64,000 nucleotides of DNA from an uncultured Pelagibacteraceae bacterium (lineage in GTDB: Bacteria > Pseudomonadota > Alphaproteobacteria > Pelagibacterales > Pelagibacteraceae): NCBI GenBank assembly GCA_902623495.1, contig CACNTW010000004.1, forward strand, positions 26,679 to 90,678, written 5' to 3'. The number at the start of each line of letters is the position of its first letter. Positions within the stretch are counted from its first letter, which is position 1. The translations under genes were made by a program, and so were the position numbers. Shown piece by piece: positions 56,133 to 59,660 of this stretch. The notes below the pieces were generated by a model. The model was not told the DNA's origin and did no database searches. It worked only from the letters and a program-made list of their open reading frames with translations.

Positions 56133-56677
56133 ATTTGTTGGTCTTTGATAATTTTTTCTATTAACTTTATATTTTCTCCACTTTTGATTAATGGATAAAT
56201 AGATTTTGCTTTTCTCAAGTCATCAACTGCTTTTTCATATTCCTTTAAGCCTAAGTATATTTGCGCTCGTCCTGATAATGCTCCAAAATGTCTTGGCTCT
56301 AGATCTAAAACTTTTTCAATATCATCTAACGATTTCTCATAATCACCCAATATAAATAGTAATGTTGCTCTCTTATTCCAACCCTCCGCCCATTTTGGGT
56401 CCTCATTAATTACGTCTGTAAATAGTTTTAATGCCATTCTATACTGCTGATGATACATGGAATAAGTTCCGTTTTCTAATTTGTTCGTCAGATAATCATT
56501 GTTTGGGTGTCTTGTCCATTTATTCCAAATTTGATCCTCTAGTTTTTCTGCTTGTTGTAAATTTTTTGCGTTAAGCAATTCTTTAAACAATATATTTAAA
56601 TTGTCTGAATATACATTATTTGTACTGACAAATAAAAATATAATTATAAAACTTATGTGTTTTTTAATCACTGACAT
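56129..56677 (-). CDS. TPR-repeat secreted protein
   Basis: Signal peptide; TPR units (WAEGWNKRATLLFILGDYEKSLDDIEKVLDLEPRHFGALSGRAQIYLGLKEYEKAVDDL). Confidence 0.88.
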   Translation of the reverse strand: MSVIKKHISFIIIFLFVSTNNVYSDNLNILFKELLNAKNLQQAEKLEDQIWNKWTRHPNNDYLTNKLENGTYSMYHQQYRMALKLFTDVINEDPKWAEGWNKRATLLFILGDYEKSLDDIEKVLDLEPRHFGALSGRAQIYLGLKEYEKAVDDLRKAKSIYPLIKSGENIKLIEKIIKDQQI

Positions 56678-58088
56678 ATACAGATACTCCTCTAGAATTA
56701 ATGTCTACATCAAACTTTTTATGTAATGGGGGAAAAGCTCTTTGAGAACAATCCAGTCTATCACAAGTTCTACATGAAACCCCAACAGGTATCTCTGATT
56801 TTTTATCATTCAAATCTAAGTTTTCCGTATAAACAAAATCTCTTGCATATTTGGCTTCACATCCAAGCCCAATAGATAACATACTTTTTTTTTGTCCATA
56901 TCTTCCTATACCTTTTTCAACAGTTCTTGCGATACATACATACTTTTCACCATTAGTCATTTTACTTACTGCAGCCTGAATAACACCAGGTCTAGAAAAA
57001 GCTGAATACACATTCCATCGAGGACAAGCACCGCCATAACGCGGTATTTCAATGCCTGACAATGAAAATCTTTTTGAAATATTACCAGCGACATCAACTC
57101 TCAAAAAATGGAAAGGAACTCCAGGTAATTTTGGATCATTCAAACATGTTACTCTATGTGTGACTTGTTCAAATGAAGTTGCAAAAGTATTTTGCAACAA
57201 CTCTAAATCATATTTAAGCTTTTTACATTCTGAGTGAAATAATTTATAGGGCATTAAAATTGCTGCACCACAATAATTTAATAAAGCAACTTTTGTTAAT
57301 TTTTTCGATTCTTCATTTGGATAATTAAAAGTATCAAGATAAGAATTTATTATATCGCTGGCTCCCTCTTGTACAATTTGAGCTGCAGCATGTAATTTCT
57401 TTGTTTCCAAAGACAAATAATCAGACAACAGCAACTTTCTATTTTTTTTATCATAAATTTTTGAAAATGGTTTTCCTTCTTCAGGAATTATATCTTGTAC
57501 TTCAATTTTATACTCTGATTTTAAATAATCACATAAAGCAATATATCTTGTTCTATTATTTTGTTTTATTTGTTCAAAGATTTGATTTGCAAATTCTTCT
57601 AGTTTTGGAAAAAAATTTCTATTTTCTTGCAAAAAATCTGAAATTACTTCTCCAGGAAAAGAATTTTTTCTATTATCTACAATTTTTCCGGAAAGTTTTT
57701 CAATTTTGTTAACCAATTCATGATCTTTTTTTTTCAAAATGTCTCCTAATCTTATTAGAGCTTTACCAATTTTTGGATTACTATTTGCTAAATCTTTAAC
57801 TTCTGGACCAACTATATCCAAATCTTCAAAAAGTTGATCATCAAGCAATTCTGAAATTGTGTTGACCATATTGATATCTGATTTATTTGTTAGATCGCTA
57901 ATGTTGATGCTTAACTCATCACAAATTTTTAAAAGTAATTCCCCGTCAATTTTTCTTTTACCTCCCTCGATTAAAGCTAAATAACTTGGTGAAATGTTAA
58001 GTTGTGAAGCTAGTTTATTTGCCTGCATACCTAGCTGTCTTCTAAAAGCTTTTATTTTTGGACCAATATTTAATTCTACTTGACTCAT
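56664..58088 (-). CDS. XRE-family regulator with ImmA/IrrE-like and DUF2083 domains (ScfR/RamB-like)
   Basis: HTH GPKIKAFRRQLGMQANKLASQLNISPSYLALIEGGKR; C-terminal Cys-rich CRTCDRLDCSQRAFPPL; divergent to aceA. Confidence 0.9.
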   Translation of the reverse strand: MSQVELNIGPKIKAFRRQLGMQANKLASQLNISPSYLALIEGGKRKIDGELLLKICDELSINISDLTNKSDINMVNTISELLDDQLFEDLDIVGPEVKDLANSNPKIGKALIRLGDILKKKDHELVNKIEKLSGKIVDNRKNSFPGEVISDFLQENRNFFPKLEEFANQIFEQIKQNNRTRYIALCDYLKSEYKIEVQDIIPEEGKPFSKIYDKKNRKLLLSDYLSLETKKLHAAAQIVQEGASDIINSYLDTFNYPNEESKKLTKVALLNYCGAAILMPYKLFHSECKKLKYDLELLQNTFATSFEQVTHRVTCLNDPKLPGVPFHFLRVDVAGNISKRFSLSGIEIPRYGGACPRWNVYSAFSRPGVIQAAVSKMTNGEKYVCIARTVEKGIGRYGQKKSMLSIGLGCEAKYARDFVYTENLDLNDKKSEIPVGVSCRTCDRLDCSQRAFPPLHKKFDVDINSRGVSVYVSD

Positions 58089-58094
58089 TTACTA

Positions 58095-58188
58095 TTTGTA
58101 AACTTTGTAAATTATTATTTACAAAAAATTTATTGTATTTACTAGACTTTTAACATTTTTTATAGATTTTGTAAATATTGTAAATTAT
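58095..58188. promoter_or_regulatory. two 21-nt near-identical operator-like repeats between the ScfR-like gene and the aceA locus
   Basis: TTTGTAAACTTTGTAAATTAT (58095-58115) and TTTGTAAATATTGTAAATTAT (58168-58188), 19/21 identical. Confidence 0.7.
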
Positions 58189-58197
58189 AAACTTTAC

Positions 58198-58359
58198 ATG
58201 GATAAAAATACTTTAAAAAACACTGAAACTAGTTCTCAAACTACAAATCACCAAGAGCATCAAGAGCATAGAAGCAGAGGGGTTTATATAAGAGATGACC
58301 ACTGCGATTGGGGATCAAGTGGAATGAATGAGTTTACTGAAGAATATAGCGAAAAGTAA
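58198..58359 (+). CDS. 53-aa small protein of unknown function upstream of aceA
   Basis: Not in ORF track. ATG...TAA translates to [53 protein letters not shown]; lies just after the operator-like repeats and 26 nt before the aceA ATG. Confidence 0.6.
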
Positions 58360-58385
58360 AAAGAATTAGTTTTAAAGGAGAAATA

Positions 58386-59660
58386 ATGTCAGCAGAGAAA
58401 ATCTCGTACGAGTTGAAAAGATTTGCAGGAATACAAAGGGATTATAAGCCAGAAGAAGTTGAAAGGTTAAGAGGATCCATTAAAATTGAGTATTCAATGT
58501 GCAAACAGCAATCTCAAAAACTTTGGGGATTGTTAAATACAGAGCCATATGTAAACACACTTGGGTCTTTGTCGGGAAATCAAGCTGTTCAACATGCAAA
58601 AGCAGGTTTAAAAGCAATTTATTTAAGTGGTTGGCAAGTTGCAGCAGACGCAAACAGTGCTGGTGAAATGTACCCTGATCAATCTTTATATCCTTACGAC
58701 AGCGCACCTAAATTAGTTGAGACTATGAATAATTCTTTAATTAGAGCTGATCAAATTCAACATATGGAAATAGCAGATGGAGATATGAAAAGCAGCGAAA
58801 GAACTGATTACATGTTGCCAATTATTGCAGATGGCGAAGCAGGATTTGGCGGGCCGTTAAATGTATTTGAGCTAACAAAAAAATTTATAAAAGCTGGCGC
58901 AGCCGGAGTTCATTTTGAAGACCAACTAGCTAGTGAAAAAAAATGTGGACATATGGGTGGTAAGGTACTTGTTCCTACTGGAACCATGGTCCGAAATCTA
59001 AAAGCAGCAAGATTGGCAGCTGATATTGCCGACGTTCCTCTCATTATTCTTGCAAGAACAGATGCCAACGCTGCGAAACTAATAACAAACGATTTTGATG
59101 AAAATGACAAACCGTTTTTAACAGGAGGAAGATCACCTGAAGGTTTTTATTATGTAAAAGATGGTATTGATCAAGCAATCTCAAGAGGGTTAGCTTATGC
59201 ACCTTACGCGGATCTAATATGGTGTGAAACTGCAACACCTAATTTAGAAGAAGCAAAAAAGTTTGCTGATGCAATACATGCAAAATTTCCTGGTAAGATG
59301 TTAGCTTATAATTGTTCTCCATCATTTAATTGGAAGAAACATTTATCTGATGATGAGATTGCAACATTTCAAACTAAAATTGGAATGATGGGATATAAAT
59401 TTCAATTTATAACTTTAGCAGGTTTCCATACGCAAAATATTGCTATTTTCGAGCTTGCAGAGAAATATAAAAAGGAAGGTATGACTGCTTACTCTAGAAT
59501 ACAACAAAATGAATTTGCTAGAGAAAAAGATGGATATACCAGTGTTAAACATCAACGAGAAGTTGGAACTTCTTATTTTGATGCAGTTTCCAATACAATA
59601 AGTTCTGGAAAGAGCTCTACAACAGCAATGGAAGGCTCAACAGAATCTGAGCAATTTTAA
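58386..59660 (+). CDS. aceA: isocitrate lyase
   Basis: [14 protein letters not shown] catalytic Cys motif, [39 protein letters not shown]. Confidence 0.98.

Follow-up and report, generated by a model that had tools for sequence, protein, structure and literature searches.

A conserved small open reading frame between a ScfR-type regulator gene and the isocitrate lyase gene of SAR11 bacteria

The isocitrate branch point is controlled post-translationally in Escherichia coli by AceK, an isocitrate dehydrogenase kinase/phosphatase encoded together with aceA. The glyoxylate shunt that opens at this point amounts to a choice between burning and keeping carbon, and SAR11 bacteria, which count among the ocean's most abundant cells, carry few regulators. 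Isocitrate lyase is patchy within SAR11 subclade IIIa (PMC10030771); an LD12 isolate has it (PMC6018831). The isocitrate lyase operon ms-icl of Paracoccus denitrificans lies divergent to the gene of RamB, an ScfR protein that controls the operon via two boxes (PMC10370305), and in cyanobacteria short regulatory proteins bind metabolic enzymes (PMC7760959).

We analysed 64,000 nucleotides of an uncultured Pelagibacteraceae bacterium (GenBank assembly GCA_902623495.1, contig CACNTW010000004.1, positions 26,679 to 90,678 of the forward strand), hereafter the window, in which all coordinates below are given. As at ramB // ms-icl (PMC10370305), a divergent ScfR-family regulator here stands beside an isocitrate lyase operon with paired intergenic boxes, but where Paracoccus has malate synthase between regulator and icl the SAR11 locus has a small ORF, which we call smORF1. 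The SAR11 boxes are TTTGTAAA-like, unlike those of Paracoccus, and are putative ScfR operators known here from sequence.

The small ORF and its family

Beginning at an ATG and ending at a TAA, smORF1 (P0001; 58198..58359, + strand) is an uninterrupted frame of 53 codons plus stop, encoding 53 residues, between the gene of the divergent ScfR/RamB-type regulator (PF09856) and aceA (58386..59660, +), which encodes a 424 residue isocitrate lyase (NCBIfam NF011645, above cut-off). The 26 nt spacer before the aceA ATG at 58386 (58360..58385, +) contains the aceA Shine-Dalgarno sequence (AAAGGAG). Frame inspection bears out a preliminary description of this DNA, made from its letters, which had reported an intact ATG-to-TAA ORF 26 nt ahead of aceA; the start lies 12 nt past the nearest operator-like repeat, rather than the 10 nt given there.

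No family in Pfam, NCBIfam or PHROGs matches smORF1 at E<=10, and against the PDB it returned no chain by sequence and only chance-level stretches by profile. In genome contigs, scanned at one genome per species, the related stretches number at least 430; the top 80 all lie in Pelagibacteraceae/Pelagibacterales records. Among 197 Pelagibacterales genomes aceA occurs in 102 and smORF1 in 100, none of them with smORF1 in the absence of aceA, and in the fetched loci showing both genes smORF1 is always between scfR and aceA. Where aceA has no smORF1 match, the contig either ends 108 nt before aceA, with a remaining stretch that encodes IKSLDDNN and a stop, the smORF1 tail as found in G393 (G476), or a different 78-aa ORF fills the slot and overlaps aceA (G389). 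Except at contig breaks and for partial regulator matches in two genomes, G494 and G542, scfR, smORF1 and aceA are present or absent together. A search among relatives of G389 located members in four more genera (g285, g286, g288, g289), and in all at least seven Pelagibacteraceae genera have the family. By these searches smORF1 is a previously undescribed small-protein family, found nearly everywhere that SAR11 has isocitrate lyase.

Beyond this range, 385 genomes of the class yielded no convincing member outside family f1, the flanks examined at 20 other alphaproteobacterial aceA loci contain no small ORF with DWG, and viral contigs gave no relatives. Two matches were set aside as chance: one in G050 that overlaps ABC-transporter genes in a genome lacking aceA, and one in G252 (E 0.004 among 385 genomes) beside an SbcC-like gene. 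An 82-aa ORF of another alphaproteobacterial family (L138:1405-1653, - strand) carries a core-like GYFFMSDEDDWGGSG; it is apparently unrelated and, at E 0.004 in 385 genomes, was taken as chance.

Selection was estimated from 93 distinct same-genus sequences (4278 pairs), for which the whole of smORF1 gives a pN/pS of 0.28 and a JC dN/dS of 0.13, ratios that are approximate since this wide set is near synonymous saturation; 28 close relatives give a dN/dS of 0.108. Constraint is concentrated in a 16-residue core, residues 28-43 (58279..58326, +), with a pN/pS of 0.053 (JC 0.018), compared to 0.43 for residues 2-27 and 0.29 for the tail. At about 0.02, the core is tighter than its companion enzyme (aceA dN/dS 0.049). 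Such constraint, in a protein present almost throughout the SAR11 bacteria that retain the shunt, suggests a control step of which we found no description. In outline the core reads G-(I/V/L)-Y-x-R-(D/E)-D-x-(C/Q)-D-W-G-x-S-G-M between two variable protein ends; across genera it is retained at 23-35% overall identity as G-(I/V/L/T)-(Y/F)-x-(R/K/N)-(D/E)-D-(H/D/N/Y)-(C/Q)-D-W-G-(S/G/N)-(S/A)-G-(M/I/L). In a 15-row alignment of the sampled genera, D34, D37, W38, G39 and G42 never vary. Synonymous sites of the core change freely: residues such as G28, Y30, D33, D34, D37, S41 and G42, and His as well, stay fixed as their codons vary.

The preliminary description had singled out a distinctive C-terminal half, where residues 28-43 are indeed conserved, and an HQEHQEH run, which is not; of the residues it noted in that half, Asp and Trp are invariant (D34, D37, W38), but other genera have Q in place of Cys36 and D/N in place of His35, for which reason metal binding was rejected as a general function of this Cys/His pair. 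That description had also named loss of conservation and a dN/dS near 1 as grounds for discarding the ORF; it is conserved, with a dN/dS far from 1. Because at least 430 related stretches exist and purifying selection acts at the protein level, we judge smORF1 to be a real gene, well beyond chance.

A second family, smORF2 (MTHREKHNIESNCVSYNDDCYNETN...), occupies the position before aceA and after the same regulator in genus g277 and in G098 (L166:2818-3051, +; L127:3719-3886, +; L174, L176, L177, L178). It is a small acidic protein with no real match in Pfam or NCBIfam, and its core, NIESNCVS(Y/F)(N/D)D-C-ETN, differs from that of smORF1, to which it has no clear relation. In G098 the two are in tandem. 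The small proteins of G477 and G489 (L125, L126) begin with a helix-like FTKYLEEKL that resembles FINYLEAKL at the C-terminus of L166:2818-3051, perhaps a shuffled segment.

The divergent regulator, operator-like repeats and expression signals

The regulator (474 aa; 56664..58088, - strand) matches PF09856 (E 3e-59) and HTH_3 (E 4e-9) and has an IrrE-like domain. It scores 357.8 against the NCBIfam RamB equivalog, below the cut-off of 700, and is therefore classed as ScfR-type, not as RamB proper. Repeats of TTTGTAAA type are conserved upstream of smORF1, and two are present between regulator and operon: the direct repeat TTTGTAAATATTGTAAAT by the smORF1 start (about 58168..58185, +), conserved upstream of the ORF and the sole exact match in its own genome, and TTTGTAAACTTTGTAAAT near the regulator start (58095..58112, +; coordinates converted from G000:C4), the sole one-mismatch match. 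In a genome-wide pattern search, TTTGTAAATNTTGTAAAT at one mismatch or fewer has 2 sites, both between scfR and smORF1, and at two mismatches 16 remaining matches, versus 10 for a control pattern. This confinement of the operator pattern, at one mismatch or fewer, to a single locus suggests a regulator and putative operator dedicated to smORF1-aceA. A duplicated N-terminal helix-turn-helix is apparent in the regulator at 12 of 132 loci (L134, L131, L039, L046 and eight more), and was read directly in four; the longer distance from regulator to smORF1 in those 12 was rejected as a real separation, the regulator itself being longer.

Ahead of smORF1, an AT-rich stretch without a Shine-Dalgarno sequence (58179..58197, +) reaches the ATG and looks promoter-like, judging by Shine-Dalgarno counts and a TTATAA box. 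A Shine-Dalgarno-like motif occurs in 4 of 27 distinct smORF1 upstream stretches versus 61 of 66 aceA starts, and a TTATAA-like box is conserved 8-13 nt ahead of the smORF1 ATG; because of these two features, we infer that the smORF1 mRNA is likely leaderless or nearly so. G098 and G477 have smORF1 with a good Shine-Dalgarno sequence. The smORF1-aceA intergenic length is mostly 25-82 nt within the genus, its sequence is not conserved, and the smORF1-aceA stretch has no unusual RNA fold (z -0.5) and no Rfam match. In G477 and G591 smORF1 overlaps the aceA start, an arrangement that fits translational coupling.

In strain HTCC1062, a study of iron limitation marks aceA (SAR11_1240) and the neighbouring regulator (SAR11_1242) as contiguous loci, each raised about 1.6-fold (p values 0.091 and 0.054, respectively; PMC2864753). 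Judging by the skipped tag, the smORF1 slot in this strain is probably SAR11_1241, and for this reason the protein may already be annotated there as one of unknown function; a literature search found no paper on the smORF1 protein or SAR11_1241. In the same strain aceA and the regulator adjoin the iron transporter genes sfuABC (SAR11_1236-1242; PMC2864753, Table 1), a neighbourhood that, along with the modest rise under iron limitation, raises the possibility that iron stress and the shunt are connected.

Possible roles of the small protein

Structure prediction by AF2 for smORF1 alone (26 aligned sequences) reached a mean pLDDT of 61 and a pTM of 0.14, with no confident fold, a result compatible with disorder. 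For docking, loci carrying smORF1 and aceA in one frame were modelled as read-through fusions (intervening stops read as glycine; an alignment of 42 rows; one AceA subunit). In this one-subunit setting AceA folded (blocks mostly 70-95) and smORF1 stayed at a pLDDT of about 30-45, its core at about 33, with no docking, an outcome that weighs neither for nor against binding to the AceA tetramer.

A short fixed core between variable polar ends resembles a docking peptide, and the reading we tentatively favour, with confidence somewhat short of even, is that smORF1 is a genuine gene acting through its protein product, stands first in a two-gene unit with aceA, and has a core that docks on AceA or another enzyme of the isocitrate branch. 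The unit would be transcribed as one and smORF1 translated as its first gene, under the divergent ScfR/RamB-type regulator and its seemingly dedicated operator. The ends, polar and predicted to be mostly disordered in the cell, would flank the core, which may dock on a conserved partner. The likeliest partner would be AceA itself, with a tuning of its activity or assembly as the effect, and next another isocitrate-branch enzyme, e.g. isocitrate dehydrogenase. On this genomic evidence smORF1 probably helps control the glyoxylate shunt. Against the favoured reading, other alphaproteobacteria operate aceA without smORF1. The preliminary description had proposed a small protein, so far unrecognised, with a tie to isocitrate lyase; conservation, co-occurrence and selection strongly uphold this. 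The accessory or regulatory role that it added would fit the context.

That smORF1 is instead a chance, non-coding or decaying ORF is scarcely credible: its start lacks a Shine-Dalgarno sequence in most of the genus, as such an ORF might, but it has a good one in G477 and G098, the frame is intact in 132 relatives extracted, and the core dN/dS of 0.018 holds over 4278 pairs, conservation by which we consider this reading already refuted. The protein could also bind ScfR and thereby exert feedback on its operon's transcription, which we consider unlikely. Since scfR, smORF1 and aceA co-occur as one unit, the phylogenetic profile does not discriminate between AceA and ScfR as partner, and choice of partner by profile was dropped on that account; the seemingly dedicated operator and the smORF1 start about 12 nt past it are also as expected for a partner of the regulator. 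Yet for one ScfR relative, direct binding of CoA thioesters and action with no such protein are reported (PMC10370305), and it is with aceA, not scfR, that smORF1 is co-oriented and in places overlapping.

A leader or arrest peptide, whose translation, perhaps with pausing at the acidic core, would set that of aceA in cis before the peptide is discarded, is a rather improbable account, less likely than a partner-binding small protein. It would suit the place of smORF1 directly upstream of aceA, their overlap in some genera, the presence of D33, D34 and D37 in the conserved core, and the pausing at early acidic residues of E. coli aceB-aceA that EttA relieves (PMC11282234). The EttA effect, however, requires acidic residues within the first 30, and the smORF1 core stands some 9 codons or more ahead of the stop, shows no conservation of codons, and precedes an intergenic stretch of variable length and unconserved sequence, with no significant RNA structure (z -0.5) or Rfam match, and an aceA with its own Shine-Dalgarno sequence. 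The translated leader that the preliminary description offered as its alternative is weakened by this variable intergenic sequence, the lack of RNA structure and the free synonymous change in the core. It is improbable, too, that smORF1 acts on a partner outside the glyoxylate shunt and merely shares a promoter with aceA; a family with no known relatives and no identified partner would allow this, but smORF1 never occurs without aceA in the 197 genomes of the order.

A wider form of the docking proposal is more doubtful than the proposal itself: the core may serve for docking in a new, SAR11-specific class of small proteins, which would control the isocitrate branch point post-translationally in AceK's role, and a second small protein, unrelated to the first, would do likewise in a sister genus. 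At 16 residues the core is short enough for a synthetic peptide.

Relation to described systems

AceK was detected in none of 41 relatives' genomes by a search in which the E. coli control was positive, an absence in line with the favoured reading but weak evidence, because Paracoccus is also reported to be without it (PMC10370305). AceK is moreover a large enzyme with no sequence relation to smORF1. The pausing that EttA relieves on aceB-aceA is alike in that aceA is controlled through translation of an upstream ORF and acidic residues matter (PMC11282234), but what smORF1 conserves is the residues of its core rather than codons or RNA structure, and its acidic core lies beyond residue 30. 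For IF7/IF17, CP12 and PirC/CfrA, which have no known sequence relation to smORF1, we draw an analogy only, enzyme binding being hypothetical here: the likeness is in the mode of action, a short protein controlling a central metabolic enzyme through binding (PMC7760959).
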